Below are positions 26,686 to 48,134 of a stretch of DNA of 64,000 nucleotides, in pieces. The notes under the pieces were generated by a model. The model was not told the DNA's origin and searched no databases. It saw only the letters and a program-made list of their open reading frames with translations. A program made the translations under genes and the position numbers. The DNA comes from Planctomycetales bacterium (GTDB lineage: Bacteria > Planctomycetota > Phycisphaerae > SM23-33), in the NCBI GenBank assembly GCA_030612725.1, contig JAUWNJ010000003.1, positions 62,001-126,000 of the forward strand, read 5' to 3'. The stretch's first letter is position 1. The number at the start of each line of letters is the position of its first letter.

Positions 26686-28476
26686 TTATTCGGCTTTTTC
26701 TTCGCCGGACTCGTCCTCGCCTTCGTCAGCAGAAGGTTTTTCCTCTACCGGCGCTTCTTCAGCGGGCTGGATATCATCATCAGGTGCGAACGGTACTTCT
26801 TCTGCCTCTTCTATGTACACGTCGTCTAAGTCTGTCGCGTCGATTTTCCGTCTCAGGAGGCAGTAGATATTCGTAGCGGCCGAGAAGAGGAAGCAGATTC
26901 CGAACGCCGCTACTACTCCGATAACGAGGTACACCCACAGCGACATCACAACGGCAGCGCCGGCTTCGGAACCGCTCATCGCCTCGAAGTGGAACGGAGC
27001 GTGGAACGATTCAAACGTAGGTTTCGCCCACATCACGTCGAGTTTGCCGGCCCCTGGGGCATACTCGGGACGGTCTGCGATGCCCATCCACCATCCGACC
27101 CAGGAGTGCACCGCCAGCAACGTTATAAACGCAAATAACCTGACAAACAGGTAGCAGATGGTTCCGTAGATAGCGGCTATCACCCAGTACAGGCCGTATC
27201 GGAACGGGCGGGTAAAGGTGTAGCTGAACGACCTGCTGATGGCGTCGAAGGAGTCGGAACCTTCCACGGCGATTGTAGGCCACATCAGCGGCGCCCCGCC
27301 GATAAGCCCGACCGTCAGGAACGCGATTACCGCGCCGAGTATCAGCGCCAGGAAGAACAGTATGGCGACGATCCATTCGCCGATGACCGGAATCGTCCCG
27401 ATCAGCCCACCCAGCGCCAGGAATATCCCGAGAAGAACAATTATTCCCAGAGGAAGCAACGGGGCGGTGAAGAAACCGATGAACTTCGACAGCGAGAATG
27501 ACACCGCCGTTTTGATTGAAATTTTCTCCTCACGGGCTGCGTGCAGCGCGGCGATGCGACAAATCGCCCCGCCAAGCACCGACCAGATCGCAAGGGCGAC
27601 GACAATATAGATAATTGAATAAACCGGATACGTCGAGATTATCCACCACAACCCCCACAGCATCAGCACGATCCAGGCAATGACGCCGTATCCTTCGGGG
27701 TCGTTCGTAGAGGCGTCGAACTGGGTTCGGTTCTGCACCGCCGGAGCCGACGGAGCCATCGAACCTCGTTGATTCAGGAGGTTGGAGATACCCGTGGCAA
27801 CGTTACCGCGACGCACCGAACCGATGGCGTTGGAGACGCATCGACCCTGCCAGTCCATAAAACCAGCGAATATCCCGCTACCCTTTAACTTCTTCAGATT
27901 ATTCGACCCGGCGATGTACGCCTGCAGCGCTCCGCGCTTCGCATTCAGACGGGCCTTTTTGGCGACTTTAGTATCCTGCTTTCGCTCCTTCTTGGACGAG
28001 AGGCCATCGATGCGTTTCTCCTCCTTGTCCCATGCGTCATCGGCGGCATCCTTGGCCTTCTTGTATGACCGCTCCAATGCCTCATCAAGCCTTTTGACTG
28101 CTTTGCCAAAATCATCCTTGGCGAGTTTGGTTGCCGCTGTCAAGTCCGTATCGGCGCTGGGCGTACGGGCCAGCGTCTCCGCTACACCGGCAACGCGGGT
28201 CTTTTCGAGCCACGTCTCTTTGGCTTCGCCGAAAGAGGTCCGGCTTGGAGACCTCCAGTATCCCCAGGTCTCACCCTCCATAACGACAGATGAATCACTT
28301 ACGCCCGACCACATCTTGTCCATCACAAGACCCAGCGCGCAGGTAAGAATAATTGCAAGCAAAGCCAGAAAAATCTTGCTGGGATGAATGGCCATCTTGA
28401 AAGACTTGAGGATGTGCGAAAAACTGAATACCTCGTTCCAACTGACGCCCCTGATGACATTGTGTTCGTCGGCCAT
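26686..28476 (-). CDS. Large polytopic membrane protein, function unknown
   Basis: 596 residues. One helix follows the N-terminus (KIFLALLAIILTCALGLVM), then an extracytoplasmic, Lys/Ala-rich helical segment (about 75-230), then six or more membrane helices (about 265-560) and an acidic Glu/Asp tail. No catalytic motif recognised. AGGAG precedes the ATG at 28476; an upstream start is less likely. Arrangement of a permease-like core with a soluble insertion may indicate an envelope assembly or transport component, but I assign no function. Confidence 0.75.
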   Translation of the reverse strand: MADEHNVIRGVSWNEVFSFSHILKSFKMAIHPSKIFLALLAIILTCALGLVMDKMWSGVSDSSVVMEGETWGYWRSPSRTSFGEAKETWLEKTRVAGVAETLARTPSADTDLTAATKLAKDDFGKAVKRLDEALERSYKKAKDAADDAWDKEEKRIDGLSSKKERKQDTKVAKKARLNAKRGALQAYIAGSNNLKKLKGSGIFAGFMDWQGRCVSNAIGSVRRGNVATGISNLLNQRGSMAPSAPAVQNRTQFDASTNDPEGYGVIAWIVLMLWGLWWIISTYPVYSIIYIVVALAIWSVLGGAICRIAALHAAREEKISIKTAVSFSLSKFIGFFTAPLLPLGIIVLLGIFLALGGLIGTIPVIGEWIVAILFFLALILGAVIAFLTVGLIGGAPLMWPTIAVEGSDSFDAISRSFSYTFTRPFRYGLYWVIAAIYGTICYLFVRLFAFITLLAVHSWVGWWMGIADRPEYAPGAGKLDVMWAKPTFESFHAPFHFEAMSGSEAGAAVVMSLWVYLVIGVVAAFGICFLFSAATNIYCLLRRKIDATDLDDVYIEEAEEVPFAPDDDIQPAEEAPVEEKPSADEGEDESGEEKAE

Positions 28477-28609
28477 AACTGCTCCTTTCGATAGATTGGA
28501 TTTGTTCCAAACGGTACTACTGTTGCGAATTATATCCCGCACTATACACGGTTCAACGAATTTTTAGCGGTAAATACAGATAATCTTATTCAGTGTCGAT
28601 ATTCGAATT

Positions 28610-33410: not shown

Positions 33411-33566
33411 ATGGAGAATTTTGAATGACGAAGTAAAAAAATATCCCTCATAAGCGTGTTGTTTCTTTTTGTTTCTTCTACTTCGAAATTCGACATTCTT
33501 TGTTCCACGTAGTGGTACGTAGTACCGCTACGCGGTGCTATGCACAATATTCAATATTCATTTTTT
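33395..33566. repeat. Nested heptamer-hairpin composite element between convergent genes
   Basis: Six 7-mers based on GAATATT/GAATGAC (33395-33436) are answered by reverse-complement units at 33478-33498 (CTACTTC, GAAATTC, GACATTC) and 33546-33566 (AATATTC twice). Between the last two lies a hairpin TAGTGGTAC/GTACCGCTA (about 33510-33530). The element supplies the stop codon of the glycosyltransferase and, on the other strand, of the SPASM radical SAM gene. Confidence 0.8.
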
Positions 33567-35032
33567 CCATGGATAAGGTGGGCTTCTTCATTGACTACGC
33601 CTGAAGCGACAAGTTCGTCCCAGTATTGTTGATTGAGGACGCATCCCGGGTCGCCGGCATCAAGCCTTCCGAAGTATGCGTCCGACCGCGCCCTGCATCC
33701 ACCGCAGTAATCGGAGAATTCGCACACTTTGCAATGATGGATGCGGTCGGAGCGGTCATTGAGAAGATCGTAGTAACCGTTGCGGAATATCTCGACGATG
33801 TTAGCGTCCCGAAGGTTGCCCATGACGCGATGGGGCAGATAGACGCATGGCGTAACGTCGCCGTTCGGCTCGACGCAGATGTACGTGCGACCGGCTCCGC
33901 ATCCGCCGAGGTATTTAGCGACAACTCGCGCCTTTGTTCCGCTGCCGCTACCGGCGTGCGAGCACGCGGTTTTTCCCGTGTCAATCGGAGCGCCCATCAA
34001 ACAGACTCGACCCAATTGCGGAGCCGTTGAAATTATCCCGATTTTACCGGACTGCATGTATTCGTTCAGCAGCCCCAGCAATTCCTCCCGCTGGGTCGGC
34101 GTTATGTCGCCGGAGACCATTTTGCTCCCGCGCCCGACGGGGATGAAGTTGAAGTGCGCGAAGCAGCCGGCTCCGATGGAAATGGCAAACTCTATCATAT
34201 CGCGGACTTCCGTGTAATTTTCGCGATGGACGCACATTGCTATTCCCAGGCGCAGGCCTTCGGTGGCTACGACTATCTTCGCGCCGCGGACTGCCTTTTC
34301 CCACATTCCCGGAACGCCTCGGAAGGCGTCGTGGCGGGCAGGATCGGTCGAATCCAGCGAGATTTCGACGTATCGCAAACCGGCATCGAGAAGTTCGCCG
34401 GCGAACTTTTCCGTTATCATCGTACCGTTGGTGGCGATGGTCGTGTGCATTTTGTACTGCTTCGCCCGCCTGATGACCGGCAGCAGGTCGGGGCTTATTG
34501 TCGGTTCGCCGCCGGACAGCGCCAGCATCGGCATGTGGGCTGAACCCATCTGGTCAACGACGGCGAGTTTCTCGTCCAGCGTCAGTTCATCGACCAGTGC
34601 GTTCTTGTCGCTGCTCTGGTAGCAGTGTTGACACCGGAGGTTGCAGCGGTTCGTGAGGTTCCAGACGGCGAACAGCGGGGCTGAGAATTTCTGCGGGGTC
34701 GTCAGTCCGAACTCGGATACGCTGCGAGCGACGATTACCAGCCCGCGAACGGTCGGGGCATGAGAGGCGAGGCGCTCGCGGAAGGTCTCGGCTGGGACGC
34801 TCCCGCGCATCCGGTCGATAAACAAATGTATCGGCCAGTATTTCAGGCGTTGGATGAACGAGGCCTTTGGGTCACGGTAAGTGGAGATAATTCGTTCGAG
34901 CGCGGTCCCGTTTTTGCCTTCCCTGGAGAGCCATCGCAGCAACCGGCGGAATGGCCAGGTGCCAAGGTAATCTTCCAGCGGATGATGATAATTCATCTCC
35001 GCCGGAGCGGGTGCATGCGTCGGGCGGTCCAT
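33551..35032 (-). CDS. Radical SAM protein with SPASM-type C-terminus
   Basis: 493 residues. The radical SAM cluster motif is CNLRCQHC, followed by LALSGGEPTISPDLLPVI and TTIATNGTMI. The C-terminal part has a SPASM-like Cys set (CGAGRTYICVEPNGDVTPC, CKVCEFSDYCGGC and a last Cys) for extra Fe-S clusters. The N-terminal 110 residues precede a normal core. Relatives act on peptides, haem precursors or cofactors; substrate here unknown. Last gene of the leftward block with the activase, dehydratase-like and Tes-like genes, 10 bp after the lipoprotein gene. Its C-terminal KNEY comes from the repeat element. Confidence 0.88.
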   Translation of the reverse strand: MDRPTHAPAPAEMNYHHPLEDYLGTWPFRRLLRWLSREGKNGTALERIISTYRDPKASFIQRLKYWPIHLFIDRMRGSVPAETFRERLASHAPTVRGLVIVARSVSEFGLTTPQKFSAPLFAVWNLTNRCNLRCQHCYQSSDKNALVDELTLDEKLAVVDQMGSAHMPMLALSGGEPTISPDLLPVIRRAKQYKMHTTIATNGTMITEKFAGELLDAGLRYVEISLDSTDPARHDAFRGVPGMWEKAVRGAKIVVATEGLRLGIAMCVHRENYTEVRDMIEFAISIGAGCFAHFNFIPVGRGSKMVSGDITPTQREELLGLLNEYMQSGKIGIISTAPQLGRVCLMGAPIDTGKTACSHAGSGSGTKARVVAKYLGGCGAGRTYICVEPNGDVTPCVYLPHRVMGNLRDANIVEIFRNGYYDLLNDRSDRIHHCKVCEFSDYCGGCRARSDAYFGRLDAGDPGCVLNQQYWDELVASGVVNEEAHLIHGKNEY

Positions 35033-35042
35033 AATGAGGCCG

Positions 35043-35540
35043 TTAATCCTTCAGCGCCTCATTGTAGTTAGCCTGTGTGGCGAAGACCTGGATCAGGCCG
35101 CCTGGAGCGAGGTCGCTGCGCCCGTTCAGTTCGACGGTCAGTTTGAGCGGTTCGCCGGTAGGCCAATCCGGTTCGACCGGAAGGTTCAGCGTGCATTTGT
35201 AGGTTTTCCGGGCAGCGAGTTTCCACGGCGCTGCGACCATCACAGCCGACTGGGGATAGCGTTTGACCTGTTCCCATCCGATCGTGGTTTTGCGCCACAG
35301 TGTCGCATAGACCAGCGCGCCGCTGTCAGCGCCGATAGCAATGTCGTCTCCCGATACGTTGCTCACTTCCACCGACACCGTTACCGTACCGCCCCGAATG
35401 TAATTTCGCTGAGGAACACCGGCGGCAACGACAAGACCGTCGTCGGCCTGGGCGCGCCAGAGAATCTCGTCGGGCTTCTGACAACCAGCCGACGAAACCA
35501 ATCCCGCAACCAGGAGCATAATTGCAATTTTCTTCATCAT
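35043..35540 (-). CDS. Small lipoprotein of unknown function
   Basis: 165 residues with a lipoprotein signal (KKIAIMLLVAGLVSSAGC), then a beta-rich Ig-like domain: GTVTVSVEVSNVSGDDIAIG, CTLNLPVEPDWPTGEPLKL and LKLTVELNGRSDLAPGG. The shape recalls BsuPI-like proteinase-inhibitor folds, but this is a weak resemblance. GGAGAAT precedes the ATG at 35540. It sits 13 bp after the Tes-like gene and 10 bp before the SPASM radical SAM gene, so it belongs to the same transcript. Confidence 0.75.
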   Translation of the reverse strand: MMKKIAIMLLVAGLVSSAGCQKPDEILWRAQADDGLVVAAGVPQRNYIRGGTVTVSVEVSNVSGDDIAIGADSGALVYATLWRKTTIGWEQVKRYPQSAVMVAAPWKLAARKTYKCTLNLPVEPDWPTGEPLKLTVELNGRSDLAPGGLIQVFATQANYNEALKD

Positions 35541-35553
35541 AAGATTCTCCATT

Positions 35554-37410
35554 TCAGATATTTTCATCCGACTTTGCATGTTTCTTTTCGACGAACGCGC
35601 GGTATTCGGGTCCGCAGTTATACGCACAGAACGGGAAAATCCCTTCCGGCGTCGAGTACAGTATGACACAGCGTTTGACTCGTTGCACGTCGTAATTATA
35701 TCGGTCCTGAAAGTGCATCCCGGCACAAAGCAGCGTCTTGTAGGTATGCTTCTCGCCTTCGCCCCGACCAAGGTTTTTATCGACCAGACCCCGGAGGCTT
35801 CGGACGAATTTTTTCACGTCAAGCCCCGGCGGAGCGGATTCGGCGTGAAAATGCCGCTTGAACATCCTGAATACAGCCATTTTATCCAGCCAGGACATTC
35901 GTCCTTTTTTCTCGATTCGCCGCGCGAGACGGTTCATGTCGCTGAACATTCCCTCGACATCGACGACCTGCGGGAAGGGAAACGCCTTCCCGTCCGGCGA
36001 GATCATAAGGTATGTTCCGAAGGCGCAGTCCGGGTGGCAGGAGGGGCGAATCTTGGCCTGGCCCGTTATCGCCTGGAGGAATTGGCCCAGCGGCGCGACG
36101 ATCGAAAGCGGGTACATGTCGCGTAGCGGTTCGGCTCCGGCCGCGTCGGCGATGTCATGCGCCAGGTCGCCGAGTGTGTAGCGTTTTTCGGCCACTTCGG
36201 ACGGATCGGCCCGACCTGAAAAACTTACAGGCTGATAACTGATACCGCTGACAACGTCTATATTCGCCACGGCGAAGCGGAAAACCTCACCTACCTGCTC
36301 GTCGTTGACGCCTTTGAGGATGGTCGGGACGAGGCAGACCTTCAGGCCGATCTTCCGGCAATTTTCGATGCAGGCGAGTTTCTTTTCCCATATTCCGGGG
36401 TAGTTTCGCGTGTAGCGGTGCGGTTCTTCGCCTACGCCGTCGAACTGGAGGTAGAGCGTGTGGATGCCGGCATCGGCGGCGGCACGGGCGAATTCGATAT
36501 CGGCGAAGGTCAGGCCGTTGGTCGCTAGTTGGATGTGCGAAAAGCCCATATCGCGCGCTGCCGAGATAATCCGCAGAAAATCGGGATGTATCGTCGGTTC
36601 GCCGCCGGTGAACTGAATGGCCGTCGCCGGCGTCGGGTCCATTTCACGCAAGGCTCGCAACTGCTTGAGCACCTGCTCGAAGGTCGGTTCGCAGACGTAT
36701 CCGTTCGCGCCGGAATTGGCGAAGCAGACCGGGCAACGCATGTTGCAGCGATTGGTCAGGTCGATCTGCGCCAGGCATGAGGCTGAGGTGTGCTGCCCGC
36801 ACAACCCGCACTCGGAAGGGCATCTACCGGCCTTGTGGGCAGGATGCCGCTGACCCGGAGCGTCCTCGAACGTCCACCAGGAAGCCTTTGAGTACAACAG
36901 CACGTCGCTGCTGATGCAATCGCGGAAATACCCGTGCTCCGGGCAGGTCTTTTCGATGAAGACAGCCCCATCGGCGACGAAATATCGTCCTAGTATCACC
37001 GCGCAACATTCGGGGCAGAGCGTCTCGACGGTTCGCGGCAGTCGGCGAAGAATCGGCTGGATCGGCGAACCGGAAAGCGTAGCACGGGCGTCTCGCCCGT
37101 GACTGGTAGCATGGTCGTCTCGGCCATGAACTTTCACGGGCGAGACGCCCGTGTTACTCGACCATATCGTATCGGCGTGGACTTCGGCGTTTTCTCCGCA
37201 ATCGTCGCAGTGGTATGTCAGGACGATTTGCTCGCCTTTCCGGTCGAATTCGGCGTCGATTACATTTTGGCAGATTGGGCAGGTCGCGCGGGTCGCCACG
37301 GGCAGCGAAGAGTACGTATCCTCAAGCCGTCCGATTGATCGGCGAAATTGCGCGAGTTTATCGCTAGTCGTATCGACGGATTCGTGTCGGTCTATCGCAA
37401 TCTGCGTCAT
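35554..37410 (-). CDS. Tes/MJ0619-like radical SAM protein with in-frame palindromic insertion
   Basis: 618 residues. N-terminal zinc-type cysteines (CPIC, CDDCG, CPECC, CPEHG, CPSECGLCG) precede the radical SAM motif CNMRCPVC (C222, C226, C229) in LAQIDLTNRCNMRCPVCFAN, then IQFTGGEPTIHPDFLRII. The order of cysteines and the IDLTNRCNMRCP-type sequence match the family holding tetraether lipid synthase Tes and MJ0619; bacterial relatives include membrane-spanning lipid synthases. Residues about 86-111 (including HGRDARAT) are encoded by a 78-bp palindromic element. The ATG directly abuts the stop of the dehydratase-like gene. Substrate is inferred, not shown. Confidence 0.85.
   Translation of the reverse strand: MTQIAIDRHESVDTTSDKLAQFRRSIGRLEDTYSSLPVATRATCPICQNVIDAEFDRKGEQIVLTYHCDDCGENAEVHADTIWSSNTGVSPVKVHGRDDHATSHGRDARATLSGSPIQPILRRLPRTVETLCPECCAVILGRYFVADGAVFIEKTCPEHGYFRDCISSDVLLYSKASWWTFEDAPGQRHPAHKAGRCPSECGLCGQHTSASCLAQIDLTNRCNMRCPVCFANSGANGYVCEPTFEQVLKQLRALREMDPTPATAIQFTGGEPTIHPDFLRIISAARDMGFSHIQLATNGLTFADIEFARAAADAGIHTLYLQFDGVGEEPHRYTRNYPGIWEKKLACIENCRKIGLKVCLVPTILKGVNDEQVGEVFRFAVANIDVVSGISYQPVSFSGRADPSEVAEKRYTLGDLAHDIADAAGAEPLRDMYPLSIVAPLGQFLQAITGQAKIRPSCHPDCAFGTYLMISPDGKAFPFPQVVDVEGMFSDMNRLARRIEKKGRMSWLDKMAVFRMFKRHFHAESAPPGLDVKKFVRSLRGLVDKNLGRGEGEKHTYKTLLCAGMHFQDRYNYDVQRVKRCVILYSTPEGIFPFCAYNCGPEYRAFVEKKHAKSDENI
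37079..37156. repeat. Triple-hairpin palindromic element inside the Tes-like gene
   Basis: Outer 23-base arms (37079-37101 and 37134-37156) pair with one mismatch; each arm is itself a hairpin CACGGGCG/CGCCCGTG. A third hairpin CATGGTCG/CGGCCATG lies between. The element adds about 26 residues in frame without a stop. It resembles Rickettsia palindromic elements in behaviour, not in sequence. Confidence 0.85.
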
Positions 37411-38730
37411 CTACTTAAACCATCGCGGATAGCGCCTTGGGCGTTTTTTTCGTCGGCAGTAGGAAAGAGCCAGTTCCATGAATATATCCAGGTCGCGCTC
37501 CATGTTGGAAGTGCTCGCATCGAAATAAAAGTTTCTGATGGGGATTCCGTCGTGATCGCGTGAGACCGAATGATAAACGGCCTCGGATACGATCCCGTTC
37601 ATGCACGAGAATGGGCTGATGTCGATGATTCCGTCGGCGCCTTTCTCGTAGAGATAGACACTTTTCCCGATTGACAGGGCCATTTCGCCCAGCGCGCCGT
37701 CGGCGGGAAGGTAAGGCCAACCCGGTTCGAGCACGTCTTTGTACACATCGTGCGGTTCCTCGTATCCGACGAAGTCCTCGGCGAACGGCGCGTATAGTTT
37801 GTGCTCATATCTTTTTTGGAAGCGGTTTTTAATAATGGCAGCGAGCATCGTGCGGCTGAAGGCTTTTCCTTCGCGCTTCAGGATGGTCTTTTGCGACCAG
37901 TTTGTGTACCAGACCCACTCGCCAACGTCTGACATCCATGCCTCTCCGCCGTGGGCCTCAATCCGCCGGATAGCGTCGCGATTACTGAACGTATTAAGCC
38001 GGCAGAATATCTCGCCGACGACGCCTATCAATGGTCGGTCCTTCGTGTATGTAGCAGGGACGGCCCGGAATGCGTCGCGCATATTGACAAGCGCCGTTAA
38101 TACCTTTTCGAGTCGCTGCTTGCCAGTCAGCGCCGGGTCCGAAACCACCTCTTCGACGGCGTCCAGCGAGTTTTCGAAAACTTCGTCGGCGTCGCCGGGG
38201 GTGTCTTCGTACGGGCGGGTCTTAAGCTGCATTTTCACGAGGATGTCCGCCGATACCATGCCCCACCATGCCCGTTTCATGAAGTCGGGCGCGTGGGCTG
38301 TGAAATCGTCGTAACTGTTCTTCGACGTCGGCGAGATGACCGGAACGTCGTCGTGGCCCAGTTCGCCGAGGACCTGTTTGAGATACGGTGCGTATTGACC
38401 GAAGCGGCAGGGTCCTTCCGCCGTCGGCATCAGGAACGCCGTTTTGTCCGGGTCGAAGTCGTCGGCATGGATAATCCGCAGGAAGTCGCCGATTGTAACC
38501 TTTTCCGGGTAGCATTCTTCGCCGCTGGTGTAGAGTCCGCCAAGTTCGAGCGTTTGCTCATCGGATTCAGGCGTAACTGCCGAATCGATACCGATTGAGC
38601 GGAACACTGCCGCCATCATCCTCGCACCGGCATAAGTCATTCGCGGTATCCAAAGCGTCCGCCCGGTAAGACTGACCCGCCGGGAATGACCCGCCGCAGG
38701 TTCCGTCATCGTTTGTGTCTGTGAAATCAT
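37411..38730 (-). CDS. 2-hydroxyacyl-CoA dehydratase/BCR-type component, PlsR-like
   Basis: 439 residues related to the D-component/DUF2229-side proteins of 2-hydroxyglutaryl-CoA dehydratase systems. Landmarks: TLWIPRMTYAGARMMAAVF, LYTSGEECYPEKVTIGDF, FLMPTAEGPCRFGQYAPY, and late cysteines for Fe-S binding (ISPFSCMNGI). In clostridia a protein of this type partners the multidomain PlsA in plasmalogen synthesis. It starts 51 bp after the activase gene and its stop touches the next ATG. Reaction inferred only. Confidence 0.78.
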   Translation of the reverse strand: MISQTQTMTEPAAGHSRRVSLTGRTLWIPRMTYAGARMMAAVFRSIGIDSAVTPESDEQTLELGGLYTSGEECYPEKVTIGDFLRIIHADDFDPDKTAFLMPTAEGPCRFGQYAPYLKQVLGELGHDDVPVISPTSKNSYDDFTAHAPDFMKRAWWGMVSADILVKMQLKTRPYEDTPGDADEVFENSLDAVEEVVSDPALTGKQRLEKVLTALVNMRDAFRAVPATYTKDRPLIGVVGEIFCRLNTFSNRDAIRRIEAHGGEAWMSDVGEWVWYTNWSQKTILKREGKAFSRTMLAAIIKNRFQKRYEHKLYAPFAEDFVGYEEPHDVYKDVLEPGWPYLPADGALGEMALSIGKSVYLYEKGADGIIDISPFSCMNGIVSEAVYHSVSRDHDGIPIRNFYFDASTSNMERDLDIFMELALSYCRRKKRPRRYPRWFK

Positions 38731-38781
38731 ATTCGTCCGTCCGTTTTCGTTTAGCCGTCGCCGGTACGGCGACGAATAAGG

Positions 38782-41700
38782 TTAAACCTGCGCCATTACG
38801 TCTTCTTCGGCGGCGTGCTTCTTCCAGGGTCTGAGGATTCCTTTGCTGTCGAGGTATGCCTCGCAGCGAGTCATCATTCCGGCGTCGTTGCTGTGCCCGT
38901 CAAATTGCAGCGACAGGAAGGGTTTTCCTGCCGATGCTGTTCGGATAAAGTGCCTGATGAACGAATCAGGCCCGCACTTGAAGTTGGTAATGTGGATAAT
39001 GTGCAGGTTGTCGCGCTCGCCGGTGATCTTCGCCGCTGCAATTAATTTCCGGCCATACTCCCAGTACATATTCTCGTTAACGTCGCGGATGTCCACGTCG
39101 TCGGTATCGAGGCAGTCGATGGGGATGCAGTTGACGCCGTAATAATCGCGCAGTTTCTTGGGAATATTGAGGTTAACGCCGGCGTCGTGAACGTTATAAG
39201 GTCTGCCTATAATAACAATCCCTGATTTGCGAAGTCTTTCGAGCGTCGCCAGCGCTTCGCGTCCAGCCTCAATCAGACGACGACGGAAATGCTTCTGGGT
39301 CTCGTAGGCTTTCGACAGGGCCGAATCGACCGTTTTGTTCTTGATGCCCAACTGGTTGCCTAGTTGTCGCATTATTTTGCTGACGGGTTTGAAGCCGTCG
39401 CGGAAGCGGACGCACGGGCAGAGGAATTTGTCGTAATGGGTTTCGAATGCAGGTGAGCGGCGGATGACGAACGGGAGCGTCTGCCCCCACGGGCAGATAT
39501 GCGACTCGGTCTGCATCCACTTCGTCTCGGTCGATACGGTATTCGGCAGGAAGATGTAATCGACTCCGGTTTCGAGAAGTTCTGCTACGTGCCCGTGGGC
39601 GACGATTACGGGAAAGCAAGGTTCGGCTACGACGTTGCTCAACCCCGAAGCCGCTGTTTTCCGGTTCGTCGGTTCGCTGACGACCACCTCGAAACCACAA
39701 TGCCTCCAGAACGCCCTCCAGAACGGAAGGTAATCCATCGCGAACATCGCTCGCGGGATACCGATCTTCGGCGCGCCGTCTGGGACGTCGGGCAAGCCGG
39801 ACTCATCATTAAACAACTGCTCGCGGAAGGCGAAAAGGTCTTTGATTACCGGTTTTATTGCGCTTTTGCTGCGTTTGCGGTATCGGTCGGAACACTTATC
39901 GCCCCAGTAAGTCTTTTCGCCCTCGACGGTGAATTCCTGGACGATGCAGTGGTTTGAGCAACCGTTGCAGGTGAACTCGCGCAGGCTGTAATCAATCTTG
40001 GAAAGGTCATATCCACGGAACCGACTGGAAGCAGCGCCCACAGGGACATATTGACCGTCCTGCTCCGAGGTTTCCTCGCCCGCCCCGGCGGATCTTTGAC
40101 CGGTGGCCATTGTCATTTTGTCTCTTGCCAGAAGCGCTGCCCCGATAGCACCCATAACGCCGTTGTACGGAGGGACGATAATCTCCTTGTCCAGCACTGC
40201 CGACATTGCGGCGACTACCGCGTCGTTATAAGCGGTCCCGCCCTGAAAGAAGAGGCAATCGCCGATATGCCGACCTCGAATGACACGATTGATGTAATTA
40301 TGAATCACTGAATACGCCAGGCCCGCCACGATGTCAGCCTTTTTGGCTCCGCGCTGCATGTAATCGGCAACGTCCCGCTCCATAAAGACTGTGCATCGCT
40401 CGCCCAATCGGATGGGCGCGTCGCTGGAAAGAGCCAGTTCGGCGAATTCATCAATGATGGATATTTCCAGTTCTTCCGCCCGTTCTTCCAGGAACGAGCC
40501 TGTCCCTGCCGCACATGCGTCGTTCATGGTGAAATCGACTACCACGCCGTCCTGGAGTGATATGAATTTGGAATCCTGCCCGCCGATCTCGAAGATAGTG
40601 TCGGGGACTTTTCCGTTTAGCATCGTCTGTCCGATAAAGGTCGCGCCGGTTTTATGCGCGGTGATTTCGTCGTTGATGGTGTCGGCTCCGACGAGTTGAC
40701 CTATCAGTTCGCGTCCGCTTCCGGTGGTTCCTACGCCGCGAATGATTACGTTGTCGCCAATTTCCTCGGCGATTTCGGTCAGCCCCGCCGAAACGACCTC
40801 GATAGGTCGGCCCTGTGTGCGAGTGTATATTTCCTTGATTACCCCGCCGGCAGAGTCGATTACGACGAGGTTCGTGGAGACTGATCCGATGTCGATTCCG
40901 AGGTATGCGTCGATTTTCTCGTTGCCGTAGGGTAGTTCGACCAGTTCGACCTGGTCCCGCAGGAGCACGAGTCGATGAGTGCTGAGCGGTTCTGATGTGG
41001 GGAAGTTACCACCGGTTGCGTCTGAGGCAGAGCGAATCTGCTCCATTTGCACCGCGAGGTTCCAGTCTGTTCGGGGGCCTTCCCTGCGAGCCGCCGCCAC
41101 CGCACCGACCGCCGGGACGTGCGCGTAAGCGTCCGGGACGATAAAATCGCCCTCGCCCAGATCGAACACTTCCCGCATCGTGCGATCAACAGCGGCATTG
41201 GCCGCCAGACCTCCGATAAATACCACGGGCGCTTCGACCGGATGCGACCGGACGACGGCCATGTGGAAATTTCTCGCCACTGCCTGGCACAGACCGGCGA
41301 GAACCTCGCCCGGCGAGTAACCCTTCTGCTGGGCGTGGATCATGTCGCTCTTGGCGAAGACGCTGCACCGCCCGGCAATCTGGGCCGTCCGTTCGGACTC
41401 CAGGGCAATCCTGCCGACATCCTCAACGGCAAATTGGAGACGACCTGCCTGCTGGTCTATGAACGCGCCCGTCCCGGCGGCACAATCGCCGTTCGTGGCA
41501 TAATCGACGATGGCGTAGGGTGGCACAGCCTTTCCAGGCTGTGTGCTTTCCTGCACAGGCTGAAAGCCTGTGCCACCACCACCATCCAACAGCAGGTATT
41601 TACTGGTCTGCCCGCCCATCTCAAAGACAGTGCGAGCGCGAATACCCATTGCCGATAAACCGAGGGCAACTGCCTTGAACTCGTTGACCGTGAAGACCTG

Positions 41701-41979
41701 GAGTTTATCGGCTACCAGTTGTCCCGCCGAACCCGTCAGGCACACGCCGACGACGTTCTCAACGCCGACGACAGCGACAACCTGCTCCAGAATCTCGGTA
41801 GCCACCGCAATAGGCCGGCCTCGAGTCCGACGGTATGCACTGAGGTAAAGGTCCGCACCATTGACATTCCTCGAACGCGTGAACTGCCCATCGGGAAAAG
41901 ACAAATCCCCAGCCTCTTCAATCAGCACAGCCGACGTTATGCTGATTGCACCAATGTCTATTCCTATATAGCATTTCAT
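38782..41979 (-). CDS. Double BcrAD/BadFG ATPase-DUF2229 protein, PlsA-like
   Basis: 1065 residues. ATPase domain 1 (1-300; YIGIDIGAISITSAV, GDCAAGTGAF with C166, GRCSVFAKSD with C205) and ATPase domain 2 (about 358-650; YLGIDIGSVSTNLVVID, FEIGGQDSKFISLQDG, ACAAGTGSF, GERCTVFMERD) each keep the Cys pair used for a bridging [4Fe-4S]. Then comes the DUF2229/HGD-D part (CNGCSNHCIVQEF, GDKCSDRY, AEPCFPVIVAHGH, SHICPWGQT, CPCVRFRDG). This layout matches activases that drive ATP-dependent low-potential electron transfer, including clostridial PlsA. Residues 135-154 come from an inserted palindromic element. Requires anaerobic conditions in known relatives. Confidence 0.85.
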   Translation of the reverse strand: MKCYIGIDIGAISITSAVLIEEAGDLSFPDGQFTRSRNVNGADLYLSAYRRTRGRPIAVATEILEQVVAVVGVENVVGVCLTGSAGQLVADKLQVFTVNEFKAVALGLSAMGIRARTVFEMGGQTSKYLLLDGGGGTGFQPVQESTQPGKAVPPYAIVDYATNGDCAAGTGAFIDQQAGRLQFAVEDVGRIALESERTAQIAGRCSVFAKSDMIHAQQKGYSPGEVLAGLCQAVARNFHMAVVRSHPVEAPVVFIGGLAANAAVDRTMREVFDLGEGDFIVPDAYAHVPAVGAVAAARREGPRTDWNLAVQMEQIRSASDATGGNFPTSEPLSTHRLVLLRDQVELVELPYGNEKIDAYLGIDIGSVSTNLVVIDSAGGVIKEIYTRTQGRPIEVVSAGLTEIAEEIGDNVIIRGVGTTGSGRELIGQLVGADTINDEITAHKTGATFIGQTMLNGKVPDTIFEIGGQDSKFISLQDGVVVDFTMNDACAAGTGSFLEERAEELEISIIDEFAELALSSDAPIRLGERCTVFMERDVADYMQRGAKKADIVAGLAYSVIHNYINRVIRGRHIGDCLFFQGGTAYNDAVVAAMSAVLDKEIIVPPYNGVMGAIGAALLARDKMTMATGQRSAGAGEETSEQDGQYVPVGAASSRFRGYDLSKIDYSLREFTCNGCSNHCIVQEFTVEGEKTYWGDKCSDRYRKRSKSAIKPVIKDLFAFREQLFNDESGLPDVPDGAPKIGIPRAMFAMDYLPFWRAFWRHCGFEVVVSEPTNRKTAASGLSNVVAEPCFPVIVAHGHVAELLETGVDYIFLPNTVSTETKWMQTESHICPWGQTLPFVIRRSPAFETHYDKFLCPCVRFRDGFKPVSKIMRQLGNQLGIKNKTVDSALSKAYETQKHFRRRLIEAGREALATLERLRKSGIVIIGRPYNVHDAGVNLNIPKKLRDYYGVNCIPIDCLDTDDVDIRDVNENMYWEYGRKLIAAAKITGERDNLHIIHITNFKCGPDSFIRHFIRTASAGKPFLSLQFDGHSNDAGMMTRCEAYLDSKGILRPWKKHAAEEDVMAQV
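41519..41577. repeat. Palindromic element inside the PlsA-like gene
   Basis: Arms GGTGGCACAG and CTGTGCCACC bound a 59-bp stretch with internal hairpins AGCC/GGCT and GCACAGGCT/AGCCTGTGC. It encodes about 20 residues (GGTGFQPVQ through AVPP) with no stop, placed between strand LLLDGG and IVDYATNGDCAAGTG of ATPase domain 1, where homologous domain 2 has no such insertion. Confidence 0.85.
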
Positions 41980-42082
41980 ACGTTTGCTATCCCATAATCA
42001 GCGTTCATGTTTAAATCGACACCACTGCGATATTATGACTGTTTAAGGCCTCTAATTTCAAGAACTCCCCCAATGTCGTTTT

Positions 42083-46445: not shown

Positions 46446-48134
46446 ATGAAGCATATCCACTGGAAGAATCTCTTTTGTGTATCATCTTTGTCGATTTATT
46501 TACTGACCGCTCCGGTTGCGGGTCAAAAACCCGCATCCCAACCTGCCTCCAGGCCCGCCAAGGTCAGGATCACAATTTCCCGCAAGACCACCTATGTCCT
46601 TGGGCCTCTAAACGCTGATGGGACGGTCAACTATGTGGCTGCGATTAACAAGATGTCCAGCAAAGGCGTAACGCCCAAAAACAACGCCGCAATCCCGCTG
46701 ATAAAAGCCCTTGGCCCGGAAGTGCTGGATAAGAAATTTCGCAGCCGAATCCTCAAAGCCCTGAAAATGCCGCCCCTGCCCGAAAAAGGCGATTATTTCG
46801 TCCCGTTCTGGAAATATCAGGAGGACCATGAGCCAAGGGACGGAACGGACGAGCAGATTGACGCCTTCTACAAAAAGACTGACGCAAACCGGGACAAGGC
46901 CTTGGCAGCGCCTTTCTCGCCCAAGGATTTCCCCTTCGTCGCAGCCTGGTTAAAGGTCAATGAAAAACCGCTTAATGCCGTCGTAGCCGCAACGAAGCGC
47001 CCGCGATATTTTGTGCCGTGGATGTCCGATTCGGTTCCGCCGAAACTGGAAGACGGCTTGATGCGTGTGTCATGGGGTAAATTGAAATACACGGCGAAGG
47101 CGCTGATTTGCAGGGCAATGCTCAAGTCCGCCAAAGGCCAGGCGGCTTCGGCGCGTTCGGACCTGCTGGCAGTACACCGTCTGGCGCGCCTGGTTGGGCA
47201 GGGACCAACGCTGATTGATCGGCTGGTTGCAATGAGCATTGAGGCGTTTGCCTGCGGTGGCGATACAGAATTGGCCACAAGCGGCGAACTCACCGCCGAC
47301 CAGGCCAAGGCCCACCTTGCCGACCTTCAGGCCCTGCCGCCACTGCCCAGCATGGCTGACACATTTGAGAGGGGAGAACATTTCTTTGCGCTTGATGCGA
47401 TTATGTCATGTGCCCGCGTGGGTATTCGTGAAGCCTTCGCAGAAGTATGTCTCGAGTTTTATAAAATTCCAAAGCATACGATTCCCAACATTCCGGTGGA
47501 CTGGGACGAAACTATGCTCAGGTACAACCGCTGGAACGATAGAAACGTCGCAGCATTCAGCAAGGCAACCTTCGCCGAGAGAAAGTCGGCACTGGCGGCA
47601 TTCGGACGTGATCTTGAAAATTTGTCGAAACAATTAGACAAGAAATACGGACCGGTCCAGACCACTCAACCTTCCCTTCTCGCAGGAATGAAATTGTTGG
47701 TAGAGCGGATGAAAAGGTTGGAGGCAAAGAAGAACGTATCGACCGACGAACTCCGCCGGGAGAGCGTCGAAATAATGGTCGCCTATCTGGTACCCAACCT
47801 CGGTCGCGCTTCGGAACTGTACGACAAAGTAATTATGCAGCGGCGGATGGCGGAGGTTGCTTTGGCACTGGCGGCGTGTAAGGGTGATATAGGCCGGTAC
47901 CCGGTAATACTGGCGGTGCTGAAGCCGCACTATCTCAAAAAAATCCCAAACGACCTGTTCATCGAGAAGCCGCTGCATTACAAGCGAACGGGCGAAGGCT
48001 ATCTGCTTTACAGCGTCGGGCCTGATATGAAAGACGACGGCGGAAAGGGTATAGGCGACGGCAAGGGCTGCGACGACATCGTTGTTAAAACAAAGCGCGA
48101 CACAGAGACACAGAGGTTCAGAGAAAAAAAGTAG
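46446..48134 (+). CDS. Exported protein of unknown function
   Basis: 562 residues. A signal peptide (LFCVSSLSIYLLTAPVAG) leads a Pro/Ser-rich linker (SQPASRPAK), then a long, mainly helical body with YVLGPLNADGTVNYVAAIN near the start and LALAACKGDIGRYPVILAVL near the end. The closing segment GEGYLLYSVGPDMKDDGGKG resembles pseudopilin-like secreted planctomycete proteins, but I do not assign a family. AAAGGGA precedes the ATG. The last eight or so residues (DTETQRFREKK) come from an octamer repeat. Confidence 0.72.
   Translation: MKHIHWKNLFCVSSLSIYLLTAPVAGQKPASQPASRPAKVRITISRKTTYVLGPLNADGTVNYVAAINKMSSKGVTPKNNAAIPLIKALGPEVLDKKFRSRILKALKMPPLPEKGDYFVPFWKYQEDHEPRDGTDEQIDAFYKKTDANRDKALAAPFSPKDFPFVAAWLKVNEKPLNAVVAATKRPRYFVPWMSDSVPPKLEDGLMRVSWGKLKYTAKALICRAMLKSAKGQAASARSDLLAVHRLARLVGQGPTLIDRLVAMSIEAFACGGDTELATSGELTADQAKAHLADLQALPPLPSMADTFERGEHFFALDAIMSCARVGIREAFAEVCLEFYKIPKHTIPNIPVDWDETMLRYNRWNDRNVAAFSKATFAERKSALAAFGRDLENLSKQLDKKYGPVQTTQPSLLAGMKLLVERMKRLEAKKNVSTDELRRESVEIMVAYLVPNLGRASELYDKVIMQRRMAEVALALAACKGDIGRYPVILAVLKPHYLKKIPNDLFIEKPLHYKRTGEGYLLYSVGPDMKDDGGKGIGDGKGCDDIVVKTKRDTETQRFREKK

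Follow-up and report, generated by a model that had tools for sequence, protein, structure and literature searches.

A conserved five-gene operon in a planctomycete, predicted to make ether-linked, membrane-spanning and probably bridged bacterial lipids

Within the window (the whole stretch of 64,000 nucleotides that was analysed), five genes lie closely packed on one strand. A sequence-only reading of this DNA had placed five one-strand genes at 33551-41979 with gaps of 0-51 bp, and the open reading frames bear this out: in the order gA-gB-tes-lipoprotein-gms-like the intergenic gaps are 51, 0, 13 and 10 bp, with the stop codon of gB abutting the tes ATG. The protein types that it had listed stand as well, namely a double BcrAD/BadFG ATPase-DUF2229 protein, a dehydratase-type partner (with conserved cysteines) whose stop touches the next ATG, a Tes/MJ0619-like radical SAM protein, a lipoprotein (lipobox SSAGC) and a SPASM radical SAM protein, which it left unnamed and for which a reciprocal best hit and a tree now point to homology with Gms. 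A plus-strand glycosyltransferase flanks the genes on one side; on the other side the neighbours, encoded on the operon's strand, are an epimerase/dehydratase and an asparagine synthase. A possible promoter lies some 50 bp ahead of the start of gA (TTGAAA-18-CATAAT, 10/12 positions); sigma-70-type matches in the region (2 found vs 3.9 expected) are not above chance. The Rfam search of the window gave no matches, and two further large open reading frames (the last rows of Table 1) have no Pfam match.

Table 1. Features located in the window (positions count from its first letter).
Feature	Coordinates	Strand	Length	Description
gA	38782-41979	minus	1065 aa	activase 1, activase 2 and dehydratase-type half 1; PlsA/Ger-type large part
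gB	37411-38730	minus	439 aa	dehydratase-type half 2, PlsR-type
tes	35554-37410	minus	618 aa	tetraether/membrane-spanning lipid synthase homologue
lipoprotein gene	35043-35540	minus	165 aa	lipobox SSAGC, secreted, Ig-like beta sandwich
gms-like	33551-35032	minus	493 aa	radical SAM/SPASM protein
possible promoter	42032-42061	minus		sigma-70-type
palindromic element in gA	41519-41577	minus		in frame, in activase 1; fold -40 kcal/mol
palindromic repeat in tes	37079-37157	minus		in frame; peptide NTGVSPVKVHGRDDHATSHGRDARAT
large ORF	46446-48134		562 aa	no Pfam match
large ORF	26686-28542		618 aa	no Pfam match

The complete gA-gB-tes-lipoprotein-gms order, as in the host, recurs within the host's family (several genomes) and in one genome from a second family of the same taxonomic order, and gene order is kept across many genera. 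Conservation had been proposed as a check on the operon, and since the order recurs in many related genomes we do not regard it as a product of chance. Rearrangements are seen as well: gA lies elsewhere in several genomes of the host family and the gms-like gene in others, and where gA has been relocated gB and tes are still adjacent. Four additional families of the host class have tes and gms paired without the lipoprotein gene. Among 298 genomes of this class, strong matches to Tes and to the Gms-like protein co-occur almost perfectly (both in 57, Tes alone in 8, Gms-like alone in 2, neither in 231), and outside the host family the counts are 31, 4, 1 and 227; the boundary between strong and weak matches (about 40% identity, with fragments allowed for) was of our own choosing, and as these genomes are related the Fisher values overstate their independence. 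Ger-type genes without Tes were recorded in 30 genomes.

By homology, gA and gB are the split halves of a putative enzyme of the plasmalogen-synthase/glycerol-ester-reductase type (PlsA/PlsR, Ger). Two BcrAD_BadFG domains (PF01869) and a DUF2229 domain (PF09989) were detected in gA, which can be aligned over its whole length with PlsA-type proteins and shares with them cysteines 166/205, 489/529, 671/674/678/696 (four cysteines in a motif that lies between activase 2 and DUF2229) and 788/829/1002. The DUF2229 match of gB is weak (21.1 bits, below the 29.4 cut-off); its cysteines 73/108/376 are kept in PlsA-type proteins, and fused relatives (1457-1513 aa) have a co-linear counterpart of it in their C-terminal third. 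In one family (f10) the gA-gB order is fused into a single ORF (1483-1513 aa) that immediately precedes tes. Plasmalogen synthases follow an Act1-Act2-Red1-Red2 plan (PMC12838417), and the two activases and two reductase/dehydratase halves of gA/gB resemble both the split plsA-plsR pair of Clostridium perfringens and the single-ORF PlsA of Enterococcus; unlike in PlsA/PlsR, gA is 27-28% identical to the plasmalogen-type homologues, falls in a clade of its own and has tes as partner. Plasmid records of Listeria, Collinsella, Haliovirga and Fusobacterium also carry full-length homologues of gA/gB, in the last case as a pair of two genes. The double activase (architecture BB) has been associated with alkyl-ether-forming Ger (PMC13274423), and gA/gB have this architecture in common with Ger of Thermotoga and Desulfatibacillum as published (the comparison is with the description in PMC13274423 only). 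The alignment places both activases in the plasmalogen-type homologues too, so we did not use this trait to discriminate between the types; PlsA and Ger are indistinguishable by sequence (PMC13274423).

The activase 1 loop of gA that holds a palindromic element carries different, partly tandem-expanded inserts in relatives (loci L122 and L125), and it appears to be an insertion hot spot. In two other genomes (L128, L137) a distant PlsA-type homologue (27-28% identical to gA) adjoins tes, with no close gA there, and may represent an ester reductase replacement. The neighbours of the f10 Ger-Tes loci are Maf, DUF192 and an upstream TetR, with no further lipid gene; the TetR-type regulator directly upstream of one fused Ger-type gene and tes (L132:3007-3639) is a candidate regulator of the pathway.

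The third gene encodes a true Tes homologue, as judged from its family score, ligands and tree position, and its tail-joining activity is predicted. The protein (Pfam Radical_SAM) scores 498.7 bits against the NCBIfam equivalog for tetraether lipid synthase (NF045702, cut-off 450) vs 315 bits against the related TrsS model (cut-off 490); it groups with the Tes of the host class in a tree that includes archaeal Tes and more distant relatives, and its nearest solved structure is the GDGT-MAS of M. jannaschii (MJ0619; PDB 7tol, E 1.2e-113), with which it is homologous over its full length. In that structure the rubredoxin site is formed by C9, C12, C33 and H36, the N cluster by C73, C77, C80 and a histidine, which we take to be H83, and the RS CX3CX2C motif by C98, C102 and C105; the labile M439 belongs to the C-terminal cluster, and Y459 is named as well (PMC9433317); C338, C455 and C470 as C-cluster cysteines are our own reading of the conserved cysteines. 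The whole cofactor set is conserved in the window Tes (rubredoxin C132, C135, C156, H159; N cluster C197, C201, C204, H207; RS C222, C226, C229; C cluster C462, M565, C581, C595, and also Y585), and the metal ligands are kept in 56-58 of 58 bacterial ORFs (alignment, duplicates included). Unlike GDGT-MAS, the window Tes is bacterial, has about 120 aa extra at the N-terminus and lies in an operon with ester-reductase genes. Relatives in the same genus lack the in-frame palindromic repeat of tes. Its 22-base core occurs 43 times in the genome (<=2 mismatches), and the reversed control 0 times.

A reciprocal best hit, a shared domain plan and separation from heme-type paralogues identify the SPASM protein as homologous to archaeal Gms. 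Archaeal genomes for this comparison were reached by a scan with the GDGT-MAS sequence, and 10 of 36 Methanococci genomes hold full-length homologues (E 2e-71 to 5.8e-82, 36-38% identity), while the remaining 26 hold none at 1e-20. Eight of the ten carry C123, C127, F326, S334, N351, C370, C372 and C438 at exactly the residue numbers reported for Gms of M. okinawensis (METOK_RS04425; PMC11186832), which ties these homologues to Gms; 8 of 9 published positions are matched, E346 being the sole miss. Against the thresholds published for Gms (E < 1e-50, identity > 30%, length > 420 aa; PMC11186832) the window protein has E 5.8e-82, 38% identity and 493 aa. The reverse search in the window's genome returned the operon gene as best hit (E 5.8e-81; the next at 6.6e-16). 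Paralogous SPASM proteins of the same class score lower and mostly lack the N-terminal domain, and the Gms-like clade is split from AhbC/AhbD/NirJ-like paralogues with support of 100/98 in a tree from which long branches were removed (62/69, with long-branch warnings, in the first tree, where the long rows were kept).

Pfam finds Radical_SAM and SPASM domains in this protein, and its AlphaFold2 model (pLDDT 87.6) has an N-terminal helical domain, the RS domain, two helices with a short hairpin, and SPASM, a plan that it has in common with M. okinawensis Gms together with the RS cysteines, C370 and C438. It differs from that enzyme in its bacterial operon, its 36-38% identity, an Ala in place of C372 (the second AuxI cysteine) and changed hairpin contacts (F326, S334, N351). 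In 28 of 28 host-class relatives position C372 is Ala and position N351 is His, whereas the seven other SPASM cysteines, C370 included, are invariant. As C372 is lost while the seven canonical cysteines stay, an open site at AuxI seems possible, and the protein is called Gms-like rather than Gms on account of this Ala. Archaeal Gms bridges two GDGT chains to give H-shaped GMGT (PMC11186832); the reaction of the Gms-like clade may differ from it.

Orthologues of the lipoprotein (27-88% identity) occupy the same place in other genomes. The sequence search assigned it to no family, and its structure model has an Ig-like fold (pLDDT 86); naming it by fold was rejected, the matches being generic, weak Ig-like ones (Spo0M, GH3 beta-glucosidases, NPC2). 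We guess that it might handle new lipids at the outer face of the membrane.

The host genome (96% complete) encodes PlsY and no heme-copper oxidase, and its sole match to PF13685, the G1P dehydrogenase model, reads by eye as dehydroquinate synthase (AroB). Since PlsY is present and neither G1P dehydrogenase nor heme-copper oxidase was found in it, the genome is consistent with an anaerobic organism whose lipids are of the bacterial G3P type. Archaeal-type G1P isoprenoid lipids were considered and set aside, as AroB was the only match; if G1P dehydrogenase is truly absent, the substrate of this Tes, unlike that of archaeal Tes, would not be an isoprenoid G1P ether.

We reason that the operon carries out ester-to-ether reduction, tail-to-tail coupling and probably inter-chain bridging of bacterial lipids in an anaerobe, a reading that draws on sequence comparison and to which we assign a probability of roughly 0.62. 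In the proposed order of reactions, the ATP-driven activases of gA/gB would feed a two-part dehydratase-type iron-sulfur reductase, which would convert the ester bonds of the fatty-acyl chains in ready-made glycerophospholipids into ether bonds; the substrates would be bacterial G3P lipids with fatty-acid tails, probably iso-branched. Tes would abstract hydrogen atoms at the ends of two tails and link these by a C-C bond, giving membrane-spanning tetraether/ester lipids, and the Gms-like protein would probably bridge the chains of the spanning lipid towards branched GDGT/GMGT-like products. The lipoprotein, outside the inner membrane, would perhaps place or stabilise the spanning lipids. The sequence-only reading had proposed an ether or chain-linked lipid operon; the comparisons support this and sharpen it to ether-linked, chain-linked and probably cross-bridged. 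More tentatively, and rather less likely than not, the operon could be a self-contained bacterial route from diacyl phospholipid to H-shaped brGMGT, in which AuxI has an open iron site and bridging may proceed via a cluster-bound intermediate, as in Tes.

Other readings of gA/gB have to be weighed against this. That they form vinyl-ether plasmalogens, with Tes and the Gms-like protein making spanning plasmalogen or ester lipids rather than saturated alkyl ethers, appears rather unlikely to us: architecture and cysteines common to the Listeria, Fusobacterium and Collinsella homologues favour it, as do the ester/vinyl-ether brGDGT analogues known in Bacillota (PMC13274423), but gA/gB form a clade apart from these homologues (in a quick tree with long branches, which covered plasmid-borne homologues of Listeria, Fusobacterium and others). 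Placement of the activase in benzoyl-CoA systems, or of the radical SAM protein outside Tes, had been named as findings that would tell against a lipid operon; the latter protein lies inside Tes by NF045702 and tree. As for the former, the superfamily is shared and the PDB matches are HgdC, HadI and MbdQ, yet gA scores far below the benzoyl-CoA reductase equivalog cut-offs (TIGR02259, 143 of 578 bits; TIGR03192, 96 of 380; TIGR02261, 83 of 313), its two activases are fused to DUF2229, it is collinear with PlsA-type proteins and Tes is its partner across families. The identity of gA/gB as a 2-hydroxyacyl-CoA dehydratase or aryl-CoA reductase was rejected on these scores and this collinearity, and an operon for fermentative or aromatic metabolism is very improbable.

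With the lipid pathway as proposed, the Gms-like protein could act on the spanning lipid by a different radical reaction (an intra-chain ring, an extra coupling completing the second chain, or a desaturation), so that no H-shaped lipid is made. The uniform Ala and His replacements, the altered hairpin contacts and the long branch that divides the archaeal clade from that of the host class argue for this; the retained Gms plan with its N-terminal helices and bridging hairpin, the invariant cysteines and the near-perfect co-occurrence with Tes argue against it, and on balance we find it unlikely. A role in the heme pathway (AhbC/AhbD/NirJ-like) or as a RiPP enzyme with the lipoprotein as substrate is extremely improbable. 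The best NCBIfam scores of the protein are indeed NirJ2/AhbD-type, but they reach 207 bits vs a cut-off of 500, and an archaeal Gms homologue has the same score profile; with the tree, these led us to reject a heme-pathway identity, and the domain plan and the Tes-SPASM pairs without lipoprotein likewise oppose this role.

The pieces of the bridged-lipid pathway favoured here have previously been proposed gene by gene (PMC10087280, PMC13274423, PMC11868695, PMC11186832). The brGDGT pathway proposed for Solibacter usitatus (PlsAR, Tes, Grs; PMC10087280) has its first two activities in common with the operon and differs in its separate homologues and in Grs in place of Gms, with no operon reported in the part of that source considered here. 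A bacterial spanning-lipid pathway of Ger and Mss (PMC13274423) is like ours, by description, in overall product type, with Mss in place of Tes. Bacterial Tes has been proposed (PMC8941075), and Planctomycetota were proposed to carry Tes, Ger and Gms homologues, the last linked with brGMGT in the Black Sea (PMC11868695). None of the bacterial Tes homologues has been assayed (PMC11868695), and our literature search found no assayed bacterial Gms homologue. The sequence-only reading had not known the combination as described, and in the open-access literature searched we too met with no paper that describes the genes as a single operon; what is new is the linkage of the genes, the identity of the second radical SAM protein, the conserved loss of C372 and the lipoprotein.

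Branched GDGTs and their H-shaped forms serve as palaeoenvironment proxies, yet few of the organisms and genes that produce them have been identified. With candidates for all three activities in one compact and conserved operon, this question becomes testable. Membrane-spanning and bridged ether lipid chemistry has long been credited mainly to archaea, and the presence in one bacterial locus of homologues of Tes and Gms, enzymes whose first characterised members are archaeal, is relevant to the 'lipid divide'.
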